DNA from: Sphingomonas sp. 3P27F8
GTDB lineage: Bacteria > Pseudomonadota > Alphaproteobacteria > Sphingomonadales > Sphingomonadaceae
Assembly (NCBI RefSeq): GCF_005502745.1
Contig: NZ_SCNL01000007.1
Location: 1-64,000 of the forward strand
Direction: 5' to 3'
DNA: 64,000 nucleotides
In this document: piece by piece, positions 7,716-41,450 of the stretch
Position numbering within the stretch: the stretch's first letter is position 1
Layout of the letters: each line of letters opens with the position of its first letter
The notes under the pieces: generated by a model
The model's database searches: none
Seen by the model: the letters and a program-made list of their open reading frames with translations, nothing else
Told to the model about the DNA's origin: nothing
Program-made: the position numbers and the translations under genes

Positions 7716-9112
7716 GACGGCAACACCAGCTCGCGGCGCGCCGCGCTGCGCAGATAGAAATCGACGAATCCGGTTTCGTCGCCACCCGCCGCCGCGACAC
7801 GATCGTGCGCCGCGATCAACGCATCCGAGAGCGCCGCCCAGCGCGCATCGAGCGCGGTGAGCGTCATCGCGGTGTCGCCGTCGACAGCGTCGCCGAGCAG
7901 CGCCCGCATCTCCGCTATGTCGGCAAGGCGCCAGGCTGCCGCCTTCTCCGCTTCCTGCGCGGCGAGCAGCGCCAGCGCGCCCGTGCCGCCGAGCGTGGCG
8001 GCGCCGAACGCGTCCCCCGCGCCGATCGCCTGCGCCATGCCGCTGGCGATGACCCCTGCCCCGATCAGCACATGGCCGAGCTGGCTCTGCGCCTCGCCCG
8101 ACGGATCGGGCGTGATGCCGCGCCCGGCGAGCGCCGCGGCGATCACCGCATCCTGTCGCCGCCCGACATACCACCCCGACAGCCCGAGCACGGGATCGCT
8201 GTGCCCACCATCGACGAACTCGCGAAAAGCGGAGAGCCAGATCGCCGCGCCCTTCACCGAATTGAACATCAGCCACCAATCGAGCGCCGCCCGATCGACC
8301 TCCAGCCCGCTCGCTGCGCGCCAGATCTCGAGCGCGCGCTCCTGCGAGACCATGCCGCATGCGCTGCCGGCCTGGAAATGATCCCAGATCGGATTGAGCG
8401 CCCAGCCGAGATCTTCCAGCGGATCGCCCAGATGCGCCATCTCCCAATCGAACATCGCGAGCATCCGCCCCGCGCCGTCATGCATCATGTTGCCGGAACG
8501 ATAATCGCCGTGAACGAGCGCGATGCGCTGCGCGGGCGGCGGGGGATTGGCGCGCAGCCAGCGGATCGCGGCGCGCACGATCGGCTGCGGCAGGAACGCA
8601 TCCTCGCCGATCACGCCTTCCCAGTAATCGAGCGCGATGCGCCAGCATTCGCCCGGCGCCGGGGCGGGAAGGTGCGCCGCGATCGGCGTGCCCGCCGTAT
8701 CGAGCGCCGCAAGCCGCCCCAGGCCGGTGAAGAACTGCTCGCCAAGCGCCGCCGCGTGATCGCCGAATCCGGCCCGGTCGAACGGGCTTATCACCTGCCC
8801 GTCGTCGATCCGCTCCATCAGGAAGAACGGCCGCTCCAGCTCCGCCCCGTCACGCTCCAGCGCCACCGCGCCGGGAACGGGCAGAACGCCCGCCGCGCTC
8901 TGATACGCGCGAAACTCGGTTTCGCTTTCGGTTTCGATCAGCCCGGCTTTCGGCTCGCGCCGCAGGATCAGCCGTCGCCGGTCGCCATCGACGAACGCGT
9001 CGAAACGATAGGTTTCGCGGCTCGCCCCGCCGGGAATGCGCGCCAGATCGCGGATCACCACCTGCGTGCCCCACACCCGCGACAGATACGCCTCGATCTG
9101 CGGGCCGATCAT
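7712..9112 (-). CDS. Aminoglycoside-phosphotransferase-fold (APH/ACAD10-like) protein
   Basis: A 466-residue protein. The first ~340 residues are a small-molecule kinase of the APH fold: nucleotide-binding region IPGGASRETYRFDAF, catalytic loop VHGDYRSGN (HxDxxxxN) and metal-binding MFDWEMAHLGDP. About 120 further residues form an alpha-helical tail of unknown role. In degradation clusters such kinases usually accompany CoA-ester enzymes, so phosphorylation of a hydroxy-acyl substrate is more likely than antibiotic resistance (inference). It overlaps the CaiB gene and the upstream uncharacterised gene by 4 bp each. Confidence 0.85.
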   Translation of the reverse strand: MIGPQIEAYLSRVWGTQVVIRDLARIPGGASRETYRFDAFVDGDRRRLILRREPKAGLIETESETEFRAYQSAAGVLPVPGAVALERDGAELERPFFLMERIDDGQVISPFDRAGFGDHAAALGEQFFTGLGRLAALDTAGTPIAAHLPAPAPGECWRIALDYWEGVIGEDAFLPQPIVRAAIRWLRANPPPPAQRIALVHGDYRSGNMMHDGAGRMLAMFDWEMAHLGDPLEDLGWALNPIWDHFQAGSACGMVSQERALEIWRAASGLEVDRAALDWWLMFNSVKGAAIWLSAFREFVDGGHSDPVLGLSGWYVGRRQDAVIAAALAGRGITPDPSGEAQSQLGHVLIGAGVIASGMAQAIGAGDAFGAATLGGTGALALLAAQEAEKAAAWRLADIAEMRALLGDAVDGDTAMTLTALDARWAALSDALIAAHDRVAAAGGDETGFVDFYLRSAARRELVLPS

Positions 9113-34231: not shown

Positions 34232-34729
34232 ATGTGGAATGACGACAATGCCATCTACGACGATGGCGAATGGATCACTTGGACCGAGATCAACTCCCAC
34301 CTCGAACGGTTAGAGTTCGAAGCCCGCTTCCCGGACCTCGAAGCCGATCTGGTGCCGATCTTCCAGAGCCTGCTTTCCACGGCGCAGGATTACTACGAAC
34401 TGACCGGGCGGCACCTTCAGGTCTATGGCGATATCGGCGAGCTATACGGCGTCATCACGCACGGGCTGAAGCTGCACCGCAATTACGCCCAAGGGTCGGA
34501 CGGGAAGATCGGCAACCACTTCGTCGAGGTGAAGACCATCACGCCGTTCAAGAGCAACGATGTCGTCGCCCTCAACCTCAAGCGCAACTTCAGCAAGGTG
34601 CTGGTCGTGAAGATCGGCGCCGACTTCGAGGTCAGGGGGAAGCTCATCGACCGGAAGGCGTTGCCCAAGGCCAAGGGCGACCGGCTTAAGATATCGTGGG
34701 ATCAGTTCGAGCAGGCCGACACCGCCTGA
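34232..34729 (+). CDS. Uncharacterised protein with PD-(D/E)XK-like motif
   Basis: A 165-residue soluble protein starting MWNDDNAIYDDGEW. Middle segments HLQVYGDIGELYGVITHG (Glu70), YAQGSDGKIGNHFVEVKTIT (Asp90, then Glu99-Val-Lys101) give the order E...D...ExK that is usual for PD-(D/E)XK nucleases. That suggests a small nuclease or nuclease-derived domain of the DUF6998 kind (name from memory). It stands alone in the island between a GIY-YIG remnant and a decayed recombinase, and its partner, if any, is not evident. Confidence 0.7.
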   Translation: MWNDDNAIYDDGEWITWTEINSHLERLEFEARFPDLEADLVPIFQSLLSTAQDYYELTGRHLQVYGDIGELYGVITHGLKLHRNYAQGSDGKIGNHFVEVKTITPFKSNDVVALNLKRNFSKVLVVKIGADFEVRGKLIDRKALPKAKGDRLKISWDQFEQADTA

Positions 34730-34819: not shown

Positions 34820-34924
34820 GTTGCCTCCGTGGGTGAGGACACGGGGGTGGTGCCAGATCAAAATTATCACACTCACTGAACTACTCGACCCGTTCCGAAA
34901 CCTAAGCGAGTCCTCCGGGAATGA

Positions 34925-35302
34925 CCAGCGCATCGCCCGCTACCCCCGCGACTCGCAAGACAGCCAGACCACCGCGAACCAGCGTCGAGAACTCATGGTC
35001 GTCGCCGAGCGGCTTGGTCACCGACCCCGGTATCAGCAGCTTGAACGGACGTGACAGGCGCCCCGGCTACGATGCGCTGATGAAGGCTGTGGCGCGGCGC
35101 GAGCTCGACATGGTGGCAAGCAGGGCCGTGGACCGGCGCGGGCGCTACCTCCAGAACCTCGTCACCCCCTCACCGCGATCAACGCCAAGGGGGGGGGACC
35201 TCTATCTCACCAGCAGGCGCTCGACACCAGCACGCCCAGCGGACGCGCCATGTTCGGCATGCTGTCGGTGTTCGCCGGCTTCGAGCGATCCACAGATCCA
35301 CA
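34925..35302 (+). pseudogene. Decayed serine recombinase (resolvase/invertase family)
   Basis: Three frames in succession encode pieces of a resolvase N-terminal domain: DSQTTANQRRELMVVAERLG, then DRRPGYDALMKAVARRELDM followed by VDRRGRYLQNLV, then DLYLTSRR/HQQALDTSTPSGRAMFGMLS with FAGFERS. In an intact member these form one chain ending near the E-helix. At least two frameshifts are present, and the catalytic-Ser N-terminus is altered (RIARYPRDSQDSQ). It is a dead mobile-element recombinase directly upstream of the CRISPR-Cas locus and suggests how the region was acquired. Confidence 0.65.
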
Positions 35303-35307
35303 AATGA

Positions 35308-35331
35308 AGACAGGGGCCGCAGCCCCCGTCT
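35308..35331. terminator. GC-rich hairpin between recombinase remnant and tracrRNA region
   Basis: AGAC-A-GGGGC, loop CGCA, GCCCC-C-GTCT: nine base pairs with a single A.C mismatch, followed by a weakly T-rich stretch (CGATTT). It could end transcripts arriving from the recombinase side and so insulate the tracrRNA/cas9 region. The short T-tract makes terminator activity uncertain. Confidence 0.45.
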
Positions 35332-35356
35332 CGATTTGGTGCAATTCAGATTGCTT

Positions 35357-35384
35357 GTTAACAACCAGACCTGCGATTTCTGAG
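35357..35384 (+). repeat. Degenerate CRISPR repeat upstream of the anti-repeat
   Basis: GTTAACAACCAGACC then TGCGATTTCTGAG. Compared with the crRNA-sense repeat (GTTGCAGCTGGACC then GCGATTTCTGA), the GACC-GCGATTTCTGA core is kept with one inserted T. It is on the same strand as, and 5' of, the tracrRNA anti-repeat. ACCAGACC (35364-35371) pairs perfectly with GGTCTGGT (35437-35444), and CGATTTCTGAG (35374-35384) with CTCAGAAATCG (35423-35433). Its variant bases match the anti-repeat better than the array repeat does. Confidence 0.6.
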
Positions 35385-35422
35385 CCACAAATCTTTCAGA
35401 AATCACAGGCGGTGTCAACCAG

Positions 35423-35525
35423 CTCAGAAATCGACCGGTCTGGTCGCAACATAATGCGATTGCGGCAGCTTGCTTCCTCATAGCAACGGCTTTCCTGTTT
35501 TACGATGTAAAAATAATCGCTTTAT
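35423..35525 (+). ncRNA. Predicted tracrRNA
   Basis: The anti-repeat at 35423-35450 (CTCAGAAATCG, ACC, GGTCTGGT, CGCAAC) is complementary to the crRNA-sense repeat in three blocks: GTTGC, GACCG and CGATTTCTGA, with bulges between, as in Neisseria-type II-C duplexes. The tail starts ATAATGCGATTGCGG and contains a TTTTAC-GAT-GTAAAA hairpin (35498-35512). It is encoded on the same strand as cas9 and 136 bp before it. Both ends are estimates: a longer form could start upstream of 35357, and the tail lacks a clear T-run. Confidence 0.65.
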
Positions 35526-35597
35526 AGGAATTGATTTTAGCCCTGGCCCCCGGCAACCTGATGATGCGAAATGGATTGGTTCGGTTTCGCTGGAGGC

Positions 35598-35645
35598 CCG
35601 ATCTGGAGCCTGGACGGGCGTATGCTTGCCCAGGCTCCAGATCGG
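35598..35645. promoter_or_regulatory. Perfect 16-bp inverted repeat in the cas9 leader
   Basis: CCGATCTGGAGCCTGG (35598-35613) and its exact complement CCAGGCTCCAGATCGG (35630-35645) are separated by 16 nt. The right arm ends 15 nt before the cas9 ATG and 3 nt before the AGGGAGGG ribosome-binding site. It could be a transcription-factor operator, an attenuating RNA hairpin or a translation control element. Its stability as RNA would be high. Confidence 0.7.
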
Positions 35646-35660
35646 CAGGGAGGGAATACA

Positions 35661-38600
35661 ATGGCGACGCGGCTTGGCCTGGACATCGGCACCAACAGCA
35701 TCGGCTGGTGCCTCTTCCTTCTTGATGAACATGGCAATCCAAAGGGCATCCAAGACATCGGTGTCCGCATTTTCTCGGACGGGCGCGATCCCAAGTCAGG
35801 GGCATCGCTCGCGGTTGACCGGCGCAATGCGCGGGCGATGAGGCGGCGGCGTGATCGCTACGTTCGGCGCCGGTCGGCGTTGCTGCAAGCCCTCGTCGAT
35901 ACCGGCCTGATGCCCACCGATGCTCAGGATGCCAAGGCGCTGGTCGGGTGCGACCCTTATGCTCTGCGCGCGGCAGCACTGGATGAAGCATTGAATCCCC
36001 ACCAGTTGGGCCGAGCACTGTTCCATCTCAACCAAAGGCGAGGTTTCAAATCGAACCGTAAGGCGGAGCGCAAAGCGGGGGATGATAAGGAGGGCGGCAA
36101 GATTGCGAGCGGTGCGAAGGCGCTCGATCAGGCGATGCATGATGCAGGCGCGCGCACTTATGGAGAGTTTCTGGCTGGCAGGGATGCGAAACGTGTTCGG
36201 ATTCGCACGGATGGAGACGGCTACGACTTTTACCCCGAACGCCGCCATCTGGAAGCTGAGTTCGATGCAATCTGGGCAGCACAGGCCACACATCATCCCG
36301 CGCTGCTGACCGATGCTGTGCGCGACCGGTTACGGCGCATCATCTTTTTCCAGCGCCCACTGAAGGCGCCGAAGGTGGGCAACTGCACCTTTTTCCACGA
36401 GGAAGAGCGCCTGCCCAAGGCCCATCCGCTATTTCAGGAAAGGCGGCTGTATGAAGAGGTCAATCAACTCGAAATTACCAAAGCCGGCGCACCATCGCGC
36501 AAGCTGTCGCTTGATCAGCGTGACAAGATCATTCTCAAACTCAAATCGGCAAAGACGACAAGCTTTTCAGGCCTGGCCAAACTGCTGAAGCTCGCCGATG
36601 ATGAGAGTTTCAACAAGGCTAGCGAAAACCGCACTGGCCTTGTCGGCGATGAAATCTTTGCCTCGTTCAGTGATAAAAAATGCTTTGGCGATCGCTGGGC
36701 GCATCTCGAGCCGGGTGTGCAATGGTCGATCGTCAAAGCCGTAGCAGAAGAGGAAGACCCTGTTCGCCTGCACGATTGGTTGATGTCCACGCATGGTGTC
36801 ACCGTTGAACAGGCCGAAGCCATCGGCCGCGTACGCTTGCCCGAAGGGCATGGGCGGCTGGGCGAAACTGCCAGTCGGAAGATTCTCGCTGAGCTCAAAA
36901 AGGAAGTCGTCACATTCGACCAGGCGGCGAAGCTTGGGATCGACCGCAAGCACAGCAATTTCGACACAGGCGAAGTCTTGCTCCATCTGCCCTATTATGG
37001 CGAAATTCTCTCGCGCGAGATTCCGCCCGGGACGCTAAATTCGGATGACATCGACGAAATTCGCTGGGGCAAGATCACTAATCCTACCGTGCATATCGGA
37101 CTAGGCCAGCTTCGCCGCTTGCTCAATGCTATCATCAATGTGCATGGCCGCCCCGATCAAATCGTCGTCGAACTGGCGCGCGAACTGAAGCTTAGTGAAA
37201 AAGACAAGGCCGAACACAATAAGCGCATTGGTGCGAACACGCGTGCGGCGGAAGCCCGGTCGAGGAAACTGCTGGAAAGCAATCAGCGCGATAGTGGTTC
37301 CAACCGGGCGCTCCTGAAGCTGTGGGAAGATCTCAATCCGAACAATCCGCTCGACCGGTGCTGCCCATTTTGCGGACGTCACATCGGGCAACTGGCGCTG
37401 TTCTCGGAGGAAACCGAGATTGAACACATCATACCCTATTCCCGCTCCTTTGATGACAGCGTCGCAAACAAAGTCATCGCCCATCGCAGTTGCAACCGCG
37501 AAAAGGGCAACAAGACCCCGTGGGAAGCATGGGGGCATACCGATCAGTGGGCGATCATCGCCGAGCAAGTGGCCCGGCTCCACAAATCGAAGCAGTGGCG
37601 CTTTGCTCCTGACGCAATGAAGCGCTTCGATCAAGAGGGCGACTTTATTGCGCGTCAACTGACCGACACGCAATATCTGTCGCGGATGGCACGGACCTAC
37701 CTTTCGAGCCTTTATCCCAACAATGCCGGTGTTTATGTAATACCCGGTCGGATGACCGCGATGCTGAGACGGCTGTGGGGATTGAACGAGTTGCTGCCCG
37801 ACCACAATTACGTCGAGAATCCTCATAGTGGTGCGCCCAAAAATCGCCTCGATCATCGCCATCATGCGATTGATGCGGCCGTGGTTGGGGTTACGACACG
37901 CGGCCTGTTGAACGAAATTTCGAAGGCGGCCGGCCGCGCAGAAGATCAGAATCTCGACAAGCTTTTTGTCGACCTGCCAAAACCGTGGGCATCATTTCGC
38001 GAAGACCTGCGTGACTCGCTTGCGCGCGTAGTTGTCAGCCACAAGGCCGATCATGGCCGCAAGGGCGTTCCCGCGAAGAGCAGGGATGCCACTGCCGCGC
38101 GCCTGCACAACGACACTGCATATGGGCTGACAGGCCTGACCAGCGACAGCGGCTTGCCGATTGTCGTACACCGCGTGCCCCTGCTCAGCCTCAAGCCGGC
38201 AGACCTCACCGATCCCATTCGCATCCCGGACGCGGCCTTGCAGCGGGCACTGTGGGAAGCGACGGAAGGCAAGTCGGGCAAAGAGTTTGAGGCGGCGCTT
38301 GTCAGGTTTTCAAAGTCAGATCCTGTATTCAAGGGTATCCGGCATGTGAGAGTGCGGGAGGCGTTGAAGATCATCCCGATCCGTGACGCTTCCGGCAATG
38401 CTTTTAAGGCTTATAAGGGCGATGCCAATGCCCGATATGATGTGTGGCGCATGCCTGACGGGAAGTGGGTATCAAGCTGGAAGGACAGGGACGGCAAATC
38501 GCATTCTGGAATTGTATCAATGTTTGACGCGCACCAGAGCATCCAGCCCGAACAGCGCCCCCACCCGGCGGCGAAGAGAGTTTTAAGTCTGCGCCAAAAC

Positions 38601-38849
38601 GACTTGATTGCGGTTGAACCGCAAGGTCAGCCGCGCAAGATTATGCGGGTGGTGAAATTTTCCGGTGGAGGGCAGATTACATTTGCAGAACATCAGGAAG
38701 CAGGACCATTGAAAGCGCGAGACGCAACTTCTCCGGCTACTGATCCTTTCAAATATTTCTATTCTTCTGCTGGCGGCTTGCAAAAAGCCAAAGCCCGGCA
38801 GATTCGTATCGACGAACTTGGTCGTATCTTTGATCCAGGACCGCGGTAA
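35661..38849 (+). CDS. cas9: CRISPR-associated endonuclease Cas9 (type II-C)
   Basis: A 1062-residue RNA-guided DNA nuclease in the size range of compact II-C Cas9. RuvC-I is RLGLDIGTNSIGW with Asp8. The arginine-rich bridge helix follows (DRRNARAMRRRRDRYVRRR, about 50-72). RuvC-II has Glu504 in IVVELARELK. HNH has EIEHIIPYSRSFDD with His589, framed by CCPFCGRH and HRSCNREKGNK. RuvC-III is RLDHRHHAIDAAVVG with Asp738. All nuclease residues are present, so it should cut both strands. ATG 35661 with AGGGAGGG ribosome-binding site is preferred over an upstream in-frame ATG at 35571 that would cross the inverted repeat. cas1 and cas2 follow. Confidence 0.97.
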   Translation: MATRLGLDIGTNSIGWCLFLLDEHGNPKGIQDIGVRIFSDGRDPKSGASLAVDRRNARAMRRRRDRYVRRRSALLQALVDTGLMPTDAQDAKALVGCDPYALRAAALDEALNPHQLGRALFHLNQRRGFKSNRKAERKAGDDKEGGKIASGAKALDQAMHDAGARTYGEFLAGRDAKRVRIRTDGDGYDFYPERRHLEAEFDAIWAAQATHHPALLTDAVRDRLRRIIFFQRPLKAPKVGNCTFFHEEERLPKAHPLFQERRLYEEVNQLEITKAGAPSRKLSLDQRDKIILKLKSAKTTSFSGLAKLLKLADDESFNKASENRTGLVGDEIFASFSDKKCFGDRWAHLEPGVQWSIVKAVAEEEDPVRLHDWLMSTHGVTVEQAEAIGRVRLPEGHGRLGETASRKILAELKKEVVTFDQAAKLGIDRKHSNFDTGEVLLHLPYYGEILSREIPPGTLNSDDIDEIRWGKITNPTVHIGLGQLRRLLNAIINVHGRPDQIVVELARELKLSEKDKAEHNKRIGANTRAAEARSRKLLESNQRDSGSNRALLKLWEDLNPNNPLDRCCPFCGRHIGQLALFSEETEIEHIIPYSRSFDDSVANKVIAHRSCNREKGNKTPWEAWGHTDQWAIIAEQVARLHKSKQWRFAPDAMKRFDQEGDFIARQLTDTQYLSRMARTYLSSLYPNNAGVYVIPGRMTAMLRRLWGLNELLPDHNYVENPHSGAPKNRLDHRHHAIDAAVVGVTTRGLLNEISKAAGRAEDQNLDKLFVDLPKPWASFREDLRDSLARVVVSHKADHGRKGVPAKSRDATAARLHNDTAYGLTGLTSDSGLPIVVHRVPLLSLKPADLTDPIRIPDAALQRALWEATEGKSGKEFEAALVRFSKSDPVFKGIRHVRVREALKIIPIRDASGNAFKAYKGDANARYDVWRMPDGKWVSSWKDRDGKSHSGIVSMFDAHQSIQPEQRPHPAAKRVLSLRQNDLIAVEPQGQPRKIMRVVKFSGGGQITFAEHQEAGPLKARDATSPATDPFKYFYSSAGGLQKAKARQIRIDELGRIFDPGPR

Positions 38850-38897
38850 CCGTTCATTATCCATGATATGTCAGTCTTAATTTTCGAAGGACTGGCC

Positions 38898-39830
38898 ATG
38901 GATCGTATTGTCGATATTGCTACCGATGATTTGCACCTGTCCGCGTATCGCGGATTTCTGGTTGTCAGCCTTGGTCGTCGGGAACAGGGCCGCGTAGCGC
39001 TCGACGATATTCAAGCCATCATCGTTCATGCCCATGGCGTAACCTGGACGACAAGTTTGGTGGTGGCCCTCGCCGAACGCGGCGCGATTATGGTGATGTG
39101 CGCGGCCAATCATTCTCCGGTGGCCATCATTTCTCCCGTTGACGGTCACCATGCACAGGCAGCCCGGATGCGAGCGCAATGGGAAGCGCCACGCCCCATG
39201 TTCAAGCAGCTCTGGCAAAAGATCATCGTGGGAAAGATCACGATGCAAGCGTCGCTGTTAACGGCTCAAGGCAAAGCTGAAGCCAATGCGCTAATGCTTA
39301 TGGCACGGCGCGTCCGCTCTGGCGATACGAACAATCTTGAAGCTCAGGCTGCGCGCAAATACTGGCCTGCGCTGATGGGTAAAGAATTTCGCCGCGATCA
39401 AAACGCTGACGGTGCCAACGCCCTGCTGAATTATGGCTACACCGTCATGCGATCATGCGTTGCACGGTCGATCATCGGGTCCGGGCTGCACCCTGCAATT
39501 GGCCTGCATCACCACAATCGGCTTAACGGCTTCGCGCTGGCTGACGATCTTGTGGAACCGTTTCGCCCCCTGGTTGACGGGCTGGTCCGGCGGATGATCG
39601 ACGAAGGTATCGAAGCCGTCACTCCCGAAGCAAAACAGCGGCTAGCCCGGCTGATCGGGCATGATTTGCGGCTGGGCGGGGCTATTTCGCCTGTGTCTGT
39701 GGCGACCCAACGCCTCGCTCAATCGCTTGCGAGGAGTTTCGAAGAACGCAAATCGGCACTCGCCCTGTTCGATCCGCCTGACGCCCTTGACTGGGCGTCG
39801 CTTGGGCAGCCGGTCGGGATTGAAGCATGA
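38898..39830 (+). CDS. cas1: CRISPR-associated endonuclease Cas1
   Basis: A 310-residue integrase subunit for spacer acquisition. Metal ligands of the family are seen as Glu148 (NLEAQAARKYW), His around 204-206 (GLHHHNRLNGF) and Glu220 (DDLVEPFRPLVD). Length and motifs match type II Cas1. ATG 38898 is preferred because an AAGGA lies before it; an in-frame ATG at 38868 lacks such a site. It lies 48 bp after cas9 and overlaps cas2 by 4 bp. No Csn2 or Cas4 gene is present, which fits subtype II-C. Confidence 0.96.
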   Translation: MDRIVDIATDDLHLSAYRGFLVVSLGRREQGRVALDDIQAIIVHAHGVTWTTSLVVALAERGAIMVMCAANHSPVAIISPVDGHHAQAARMRAQWEAPRPMFKQLWQKIIVGKITMQASLLTAQGKAEANALMLMARRVRSGDTNNLEAQAARKYWPALMGKEFRRDQNADGANALLNYGYTVMRSCVARSIIGSGLHPAIGLHHHNRLNGFALADDLVEPFRPLVDGLVRRMIDEGIEAVTPEAKQRLARLIGHDLRLGGAISPVSVATQRLAQSLARSFEERKSALALFDPPDALDWASLGQPVGIEA

Positions 39831-40156
39831 ACCTGAGTGGATACCGGCTAATGTGGATATTCGTCATGTTCGACCTGCCCGTGGACACAAAGGAACATGC
39901 GCGGGAAGCGACCAAATTTCGTGAGTTTTTGCTCGACGAAGGCTTTGAGATGAGCCAGTTTTCGATCTATGCCCGATTTTGCAATGGCAAAGAACATTAT
40001 GAGACTTACCTTCGGCGAATCGAGGCGCATCTTCCCGAACGCGGGGAGATTCATGTGCTCAATTTTACCGACAAACAGTATGAAAACATCATCCGGTTTT
40101 CGAGTCAGAGCCGCCAACGGCAACGAAAAAATCCGGATCAGCTCGCCATGTTCTGA
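39827..40156 (+). CDS. cas2: CRISPR-associated protein Cas2
   Basis: A 109-residue ferredoxin-fold protein starting MNLSGYRLMWIFVMFDLPVD, with the conserved Asp16 and the segment EGFEMSQFSIYARFC usual in type II Cas2. It dimerises and bridges two Cas1 dimers in the adaptation complex. The start overlaps the cas1 stop (ATGA), and the CRISPR array begins 72 bp after the end. Confidence 0.96.
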   Translation: MNLSGYRLMWIFVMFDLPVDTKEHAREATKFREFLLDEGFEMSQFSIYARFCNGKEHYETYLRRIEAHLPERGEIHVLNFTDKQYENIIRFSSQSRQRQRKNPDQLAMF

Positions 40157-40228: not shown

Positions 40229-41450
40229 GTCATAGCATTTCAGAAATCGCGGTCCAGCTGCAACGTTGCAGCCGTGCTGATCGTGCAGGCTGCGGTCATA
40301 GCATTTCAGAAATCGCGGTCCAGCTGCAACTAGACCCACGTGTCGCCGAAGACCCACGTGGTCATAGCATTTCAGAAATCGCGGTCCAGCTGCAACCTCG
40401 CGCGCTGCACCCTGCATTTCCCGGCGTCATAGCATTTCAGAAATCGCGGTCCAGCTGCAACCGTGATCGCGCGCGGCGCGGACACGACAACGGTCATAGC
40501 ATTTCAGAAATCGCGGTCCAGCTGCAACCGAAGCAGGGCTGGGCGCGTCGGAAGGGGAGTCATAGCATTTCAGAAATCGCGGTCCAGCTGCAACGCTACC
40601 CCCGTCAGGCCGATTGCTTTCGAGTCATAGCATTTCAGAAATCGCGGTCCAGCTGCAACTGTGTCCCATGCTTATGCTATAACAGGCGCGTCATAGCATT
40701 TCAGAAATCGCGGTCCAGCTGCAACGCGATTGCTGGCTGTGCTGATGCTGGGGGGGGTCATAGCATTTCAGAAATCGCGGTCCAGCTGCAACACCGTAGC
40801 GAACTGCCCGCCCAGCTCGCCCGTCATAGCATTTCAGAAATCGCGGTCCAGCTGCAACGATGCCAGCCATGTCGCGATCGACGTGGACGTCATAGCATTT
40901 CAGAAATCGCGGTCCAGCTGCAACGCCAGAGCACCTCAAACGATTTGTAGGTTCGTCATAGCATTTCAGAAATCGCGGTCCAGCTGCAACCCGCGACAGA
41001 ATAACCCCTCGCCGGAAATTGTCATAGCATTTCAGAAATCGCGGTCCAGCTGCAACTACACGCGGCTTGCAGAGTTTCTCGCCACGTCATAGCATTTCAG
41101 AAATCGCGGTCCAGCTGCAACTGCTAACACAGGGCGCGCTTTCCGGCGCCCGTCATAGCATTTCAGAAATCGCGGTCCAGCTGCAACGCTACCTTGACTT
41201 TGTGGCCGACCAGCTCGTCATAGCATTTCAGAAATCGCGGTCCAGCTGCAACCCAGGCGCGACCTCGGTCGTGATGCGCACGGTCATAGCATTTCAGAAA
41301 TCGCGGTCCAGCTGCAACCATCTTTATCCGCTCAATCTTTCTTCCGGTGTCATAGCATTTCAGAAATCGCGGTCCAGCTGCAACTGAACAGCAATGTTGC
41401 GCTCCACGGCGTGGGTCATAGCATTTCAGAAAGCGCGGTCCAGCTGCAAC
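40229..41450. CRISPR. CRISPR array, 19 repeats of 36 bp, 18 spacers
   Basis: On the plus strand each repeat begins GTCATAGCATTTCAG and ends GGTCCAGCTGCAAC. Repeat starts: 40229, 40295, 40361, 40426, 40493, 40559, 40624, 40690, 40757, 40823, 40889, 40955, 41021, 41086, 41152, 41217, 41283, 41349, 41415. Spacers are 29-31 bp. All repeats read the same except the last (41415-41450), which has GAAAGCG for GAAATCG. The crRNA-sense strand is minus: read that way the repeat begins GTTGCAGCTGGACC like other II-C repeats and ends TGCTATGAC, resembling an extended -10 box. Spacers are G+C-rich and all different; no match within the window was noticed. Confidence 0.98.

Follow-up and report, generated by a model that had tools for sequence, protein, structure and literature searches.

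A putative tracr-L-like natural single-guide RNA beside the divergent tracrRNA of type II-C CRISPR-Cas loci in Alphaproteobacteria

A natural single guide, tracr-L, was reportedly described by Workman et al. in 2021 in the type II-A system of Streptococcus pyogenes. Passages of PMC8616872, PMC8730458 and PMC11417352 place tracr-L in type II-A, those of PMC8730458 locating it in many Streptococcus species and those of PMC11417352 covering II-A work on S. pyogenes and S. mutans. The scaRNA of Francisella novicida (type II-B) represses lipoprotein genes according to sections of PMC8730458 and PMC13431127, the latter also presenting a Neisseria II-C scaRNA that acts on efeUOB, and the relevant passages of PMC6199352 contain predictions of scaRNAs in type II-C and of an sgRNA-like RNA in the II-A system of Listeria monocytogenes. 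Finally, excerpts of PMC13131331 and PMC12737573 describe the CreR cas-regulating RNAs of types I-B, I-E and V-A.

Here, we present a comparative analysis of the region upstream of cas9 in a window of 64,000 nucleotides (the whole stretch of DNA analysed, from Sphingomonas sp. 3P27F8) and in related loci. The pattern observed is best explained by tracr-L-like self-repression of Cas9 in type II-C systems of Alphaproteobacteria, a reading that we consider likely on the basis of sequence comparison. A literature search by title and abstract found no such element for type II-C; preprints and most subscription papers fell outside its scope, and an earlier report is possible.

The cas9 locus and the strand of its tracrRNA

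The window carries on its plus strand cas9 (35661-38849, 1062 aa), cas1 (38868-39830) and cas2 (39827-40156), followed by a CRISPR array of 19 repeats (40229-41450) whose crRNA sense is the minus strand. The locus was called type II-C from this gene content (cas9, cas1, cas2 and array, without csn2 or cas4) and not from a tree with typed Cas9 proteins; no further cas genes were seen between these genes and the array, which sets the locus apart from type II-A. At the gathering threshold, Rfam matched tRNA alone in the window, and a strict scan of 35200-35700 reported neither promoter nor terminator. Directly left of the tracrRNA described below, 34921-35307 contains broken reading frames, which we take to resemble pieces of a site-specific recombinase. 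In addition, a 20-nt, 85% complementary pair, possibly due to chance, connects the end of an upstream ORF (34709-34728) with the tracrRNA promoter region (35406-35425).

Three repeat-like stretches lie upstream of cas9 within 35309-35525 (35357-35384, ~35390-35419 and 35423-35450). An earlier note on this DNA, whose sequences and coordinates are correct, had proposed that the two outer ones form a natural single-guide-like RNA, and these arms indeed pair almost perfectly over a long stretch (RNA of 35357-35452: -35.8 kcal/mol, z -5.67, none of 200 shuffles as stable), the RNA folding of 35337-35530 giving a z of -4.10. Outside the array, 35368-35383 is the top crRNA-sense match to the array repeat in the window (score 25, the next being 21). 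The degenerate copy was also said to out-pair the array repeat, which holds slightly in the window (-44.4 vs -41.5 kcal/mol) but in just 2 of the 14 loci with both energies.

The earlier note read this RNA from the plus strand, with the tracrRNA starting at 35423 and a guide at 35347-35356, whose ten bases match 35466-35475 with one mismatch (CAGATTGCTT/CAGCTTGCTT) in a duplex that is symmetric between the strands. Relatives of the locus contradict this reading. The block 35309-35384 is nearly unchanged in two Novosphingobium plasmids (NZ_CP063447 and NZ_CP028348), whose cas9 shares 81-82% DNA identity with that of the window, and lies there on the minus strand with a terminator hairpin; in both, 76-77 nt separate the end of the anti-repeat from cas9, the remaining upstream element being absent. 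Relative to cas9, loci L003, L004, L006, L012 and L015 likewise carry the tracrRNA block on the minus strand; L002 has it on the plus strand. By this comparison, the actual tracrRNA is the minus strand from 35385 to ~35309. Since 35309-35384 is the tracrRNA in relatives, 35357-35384 is the anti-repeat and not a guide-bearing repeat, and the “spacer-like” 35347-35356 is the tracrRNA tail, conserved as such in relatives, which leaves the proposed guide-target pair unsupported. With the tracrRNA on the minus strand, the supposed anti-repeat at 35423-35450 becomes a degenerate crRNA-sense repeat upstream of it. Furthermore, plus-strand elements with an exact GTTGC showed no cas9-near self-target, two pairs being found in 135 loci (125 and 10 others), neither with NGG. 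The plus-strand reading, to which we attach next to no credence, is rejected on account of the minus-strand tracrRNA of relatives; the design itself, i.e. a single-guide-like RNA upstream of a II-C cas9 with a repeat fitted to the anti-repeat, stands with another strand, guide, target and tracrRNA position.

In three related loci (L132, L133 and L134), the tracrRNA is flipped onto the cas9 strand. On the NZ_CP063447.1 plasmid (L049), the annotated cas1 (8603-8947) comprises just 345 bases against 963 in the window, so that the adaptation genes of this plasmid may be broken.

Read on the minus strand, the window successively contains guide, repeat, tracrRNA promoter, anti-repeat, nexus and terminator. 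The predicted guide AGCTGCCGCAATCGCATTAT (35451-35470, its 5′ end assumed and its length taken as 20 nt) adjoins the degenerate crRNA-sense repeat GTTGCGACCAGACCGGTCGATTTCTGAG (35423-35450), which pairs with the tracrRNA anti-repeat (35357-35385, defined by relatives and pairing). A second, inner repeat-like stretch (35390-35419, delimited by eye, with an exact 11-nt repeat match at 35394-35404) overlaps the predicted promoter of the short tracrRNA (35390-35418), composed of TTGACA (35418-35413), 17 nt and AAGATT (35395-35390), the box being weak. The nexus and tail (35331-35356, from relatives and fold) are followed by the terminator hairpin (35309-35330, from relatives), with a T-run that is poor in the window. 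With the guide constrained to stay unpaired, the predicted fold is that of a single-guide RNA, with a repeat:anti-repeat stem, a nexus hairpin and a terminator hairpin; left unconstrained, the long RNA prefers pairing via the inner repeat-like stretch (-63.5 vs -58.4 kcal/mol with the guide open).

Second repeats, guides and self-targets across related loci

The first set comprised 113 oriented loci, 89 of them with an array, fragments and duplicates among the first loci having been removed by script. Enough upstream DNA was available for 111 loci, and the removal of 10 without a rule-based minus-strand tracrRNA left 101, then 99 (window included) once L141 and L143, copies of other loci, were dropped; the loci are not phylogenetically independent. 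In 21 of the 101 loci, window included (20 without one duplicate pair), the strand of the tracrRNA bears a second repeat between the tracrRNA and cas9. The gap between tracrRNA and cas9 spans 272-480 nt in these loci, except for L069 (148 nt), whose match is probably due to chance. Among the 80 loci without a second repeat, the gap measures 57-181 nt in 63 and 197-419 nt in 17. Pairing between second repeat and anti-repeat, computed for 17 loci, was in each case at least 2.8 sd beyond that of shuffled repeats. Solo crRNA-sense repeats were also seen on the plus strand upstream of cas9 in L103 (-133 to -105) and L147 (-236 to -209).

The guide corresponds to the bases directly 5′ of the second repeat on the minus strand, and its last 10-13 nt match, in many loci, a site nearer cas9, after which come e.g. 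AGGAATTG, AGGCATTG or GGGGATTG. In the window, the last 11 nt match the predicted target AATCGCTTTAT (35515-35525, plus strand) at 10 of 11 positions, the mismatch falling in the seed at position 5 from the PAM side, and the inferred PAM AGGAATTG (35526-35533, plus strand) comes directly after the target with the same eight bases as in L056, a locus whose guide and target agree perfectly over 13 nt. Such a pair had a chance of 0.004 in 20000 shuffles (0.0001 with NGG) and of 0.012 for random window 11-mers (0.0017 with NGG). Five sites with at most one mismatch, the guide itself included, occur in the 64 kb, one of them with NGG. In its own genome, a pattern search with the full guide returned a single occurrence at up to two mismatches and one further site at three, and a search with 13 guide bases plus NGG, at up to two mismatches, returned 15 places, among them the guide itself; the predicted self-target lies outside these places because two bases differ 5′ of the 11-mer. 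As further short seed sites exist in this genome, the specificity of the guide is putative. The window target is located 136-146 nt before the cas9 start, the position of the cas9 promoter being putative. After seven plus-strand targets, the inferred PAM runs into TTGA in the window, L051, L052 and L056 and into TTGT in L104, L055 and L065 being different; this TTGA may be the -35 box of cas9.

Guides vary among loci, each fitting the upstream region of its own cas9. In a guide-swap control on 14 loci, which had been picked by repeat matches and for several of which guide matches had already been seen by eye, 13 of the 14 own pairs reached score 8 vs 1 of 182 swapped pairs. With a rule-based set of 20 loci and a loose junction, own and swapped pairs amounted to 13/20 vs 4/380 at score 10 and 16/20 vs 30/380 at score 8, no good guide match being found in this set for L062, L063, L069 and L082. 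A blind scan, relying on GCAAC (the repeat start, at most one mismatch) and on a second occurrence, with one mismatch at most, of the 11 nt that follow it, with neither PAM nor repeat similarity, revealed guide/self-target pairs in 23 of the 99 loci vs ~1 expected from shuffles, 17 loci having NGG vs 0.1 expected. It added L067, L072, L091, L137 and L138, whose second repeat is below threshold, together with L082 at another place. We accepted 21 of these 23 pairs, L062 and L140 being judged noise, partly for their missing NGG (17 of 23 with NGG when both are included); the pair of L113, which requires a 1-nt bulge, was excluded from the count.

When anchors were permuted over 125 loci, GCAAC gave 27 loci (19 with the exact anchor, 18 with NGG), while 27 of the other 29 letter orders gave 1-14 loci (0-2 exact, 0-3 with NGG); the exceptions, CGCAA (20, 9 and 7, respectively) and CAACG (13, 0 and 7), share four overlapping bases with GCAAC. 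A second set of 55 loci, reduced to 43 by removing 10 duplicates and 2 loci without a Cas9 start and to 26 scored loci by removing 17 without a rule-based tracrRNA, contained four loci with a pair vs 0.3 expected, just one of them with NGG (0.15 expected), and no match in five loci with gaps of 218-551 nt. Fixed rules were applied in the rule-based, blind, permuted-anchor and second-set scans, anchor and length having been learned from the first set. Gaps of 195 nt or more occur in 36 loci of the first set; for 15 of these no pair was accepted, L063 being among them despite its clear second repeat. For the whole set of pairs, chance is ruled out by the swap, shuffle and permuted-anchor controls. 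Since a strong hairpin is possible on both strands, the inverted repeat might also work independently of Cas9, at the DNA level or by forming a hairpin within some other transcript (e.g. an attenuator); this leaves unexplained why, in relatives, 11-mers anchored by GCAAC recur with an NGG-type flank, and we hold this alternative to be very improbable.

These pairs are also biased in their flanks. NGG follows 17 of the 21 accepted targets, against a background of 6.6%, and PAM positions 5-7 in the 21 accepted loci are mostly A (14), T (15) and T (12), the inferred PAM being NGG followed by A/T-rich bases. GGA replaces NGG in L090, L091 and L093, and in L160 and L193 of the second set, where NGG would be obtained if the target end were moved one base back. 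A spacer of L093 matches a Mesorhizobium phage over 30 of 32 aligned bases (28 of 30 spacer bases; E 0.005, one moderate match), and the 3′ flank of this protospacer in crRNA sense, GGAGATCA, is near GGAAATTA beside the own target of L093, providing single, weak independent support for the PAM. The window array had no match in phages, its matches in plasmids were four records that are apparently other CRISPR loci, and three of its spacers, used as exact patterns, were absent from viral contigs. As for other arrays, that of L143 matched two records of one phage over 123 bases without a spacer match, that of L138 gave nothing in phages and one plasmid record with repeated pieces, and those of L052, L065, L066, L105 and L055 gave nothing in phages. 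Among the matches listed for 1557 spacers against the collected DNA, the near-identical ones were copies of the same loci and two others were weak. A word search of the Cas9 PAM catalogue PMC7606464 returned none of the genera sought. A related Cas9 is encoded, at 48% identity and together with an array of 12 repeats, on an IMG/VR viral contig (L131).

Proposed self-repression and its evolution

According to the mechanism that we favour, the minus strand would encode the normal short tracrRNA together with a longer form acting as a natural single-guide RNA. A transcript initiated upstream of ~35470 would carry the guide, the degenerate repeat folded onto the anti-repeat, the nexus and the terminator. 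In Cas9 loaded with this long RNA, the 11 nt at the 3′ end of the guide would base-pair with 35515-35525, beside the NGG-type PAM; the protein would remain on this site upstream of cas9, leaving the target uncut because the match is short. Bound Cas9 would in turn lower cas9-cas1-cas2 transcription. Cas9 self-repression, which the earlier note had put forward as the purpose of the element, is probable given its recurrence in relatives and the joint change of guide and target.

For the short tracrRNA, a TTGAC box stands at promoter spacing, inside the long form, in 14 of the 21 loci, window included, as a consensus match and not as a mapped promoter. The promoter region of the short tracrRNA (35390-35419 in the window) resembles a CRISPR repeat, most clearly in L104 and L082, whose TTGACC and TATCAT boxes are embedded in a decayed repeat; this resemblance suggests that tracrRNA promoters were made from stray repeats. 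For the long form, consensus promoters in the 21 loci averaged 6.6 of 12 matches vs 6.8 in shuffles, none being above chance. That no long-form promoter stands out would suit a two-part system, in which guide and degenerate repeat form a separate scaRNA-like RNA pairing in trans with the short tracrRNA, with the same target and effect. In L066 and L113, a hairpin then a T-run, as in a scaRNA-type terminator, occur between guide-repeat and tracrRNA, so that these two loci may make such a separate RNA. The window, by contrast, has no T-run there and just 37 nt from the 30-nt repeat core to the anti-repeat, and we regard the two-part system as unlikely.

The trait is distributed patchily over a Cas9 tree built with FastTree: 92 loci were scored, and the 21 positives among them require 17 changes, gains and losses not being distinguished. 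The first 16 positives required 14 changes vs a shuffled mean of 14.9, i.e. they are not more clustered than shuffled labels, and all of them fall within 72 of the 102 tree rows. The comparison of related II-C loci advocated by the earlier note recovers a pattern that recurs with co-changing guide and target, but the two closest relatives, the Novosphingobium plasmids, are without the element. This patchiness, like the seed mismatch, the weak terminator T-run, the extra inner repeat-like stretch and the promoter that was not found, would be expected of stray CRISPR repeats persisting beside the tracrRNA as remnants, functionless now in the window. The NGG-bearing guide/self-target pairs in 17 loci, where 0.1 was expected, and the low chance of the window pair with NGG (0.0001-0.0017) speak against a remnant, which appears improbable to us.

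Self-repression by a natural single-guide RNA would probably be a recurrent II-C trait in Alphaproteobacteria (about one in five scored loci), repeatedly appearing and disappearing, with a locus-specific 11-nt guide matched to the upstream region of its own cas9. The raw material of the element would be stray CRISPR repeats next to a divergent tracrRNA, and in some loci the promoter of this tracrRNA is maybe itself a decayed repeat. If true, the control of Cas9 by its own natural single guides would extend from type II-A to type II-C, where the genes are laid out differently and guides change fast. From the guide/self-target pairs, PAMs can also be predicted for about twenty Cas9 proteins that are as yet uncharacterised; the pairs further indicate natural single-guide scaffolds and bear on how the dose of Cas9 is limited. 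Moreover, since the nearest relatives are located on conjugative plasmids and have no such element, regulated and unregulated forms of a near-identical system can be compared.

Comparison with known systems

With CreR, as depicted in the excerpts cited above, the window element would share a crRNA-like RNA that partly matches a cas promoter and an effector that represses its own genes; CreR involves other effectors and no tracrRNA fusion, and the present Cas9 system falls outside it. As in the sgRNA-like RNA predicted for Listeria monocytogenes, repeat and anti-repeat would belong to one transcript upstream of the cas genes, but the Listeria RNA is of type II-A and the passages of PMC6199352 describe no target upstream of cas9 for it. 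The scaRNAs, in the sections cited, likewise rely on a degenerate, tracrRNA-pairing repeat located outside the array, through which Cas9 acquires a partial guide; a scaRNA is a separate RNA that represses other genes, whereas the present element has its guide on the strand of the tracrRNA, with a predicted target upstream of cas9.

The resemblance to tracr-L, as presented in the passages cited, covers the degenerate repeat upstream of the tracrRNA, on the same strand and complementary to the anti-repeat, the short-tracrRNA promoter within the long form (in the window, a consensus match only), a PAM-adjacent match of ~11 nt (10 of 11 in the window) located upstream of the cas genes and a presumed binding without cutting. 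Experiments back tracr-L in II-A; the II-C element is predicted here from sequence. Unlike tracr-L, the window locus is of type II-C and has a tracrRNA divergent from cas9, and the window and its relatives display guides and targets that vary by locus, an inferred PAM of NGG plus A/T-rich bases and a patchy presence. As the gene content is not that of a type II-A locus, the II-C element would work like tracr-L without being a member of its II-A family.
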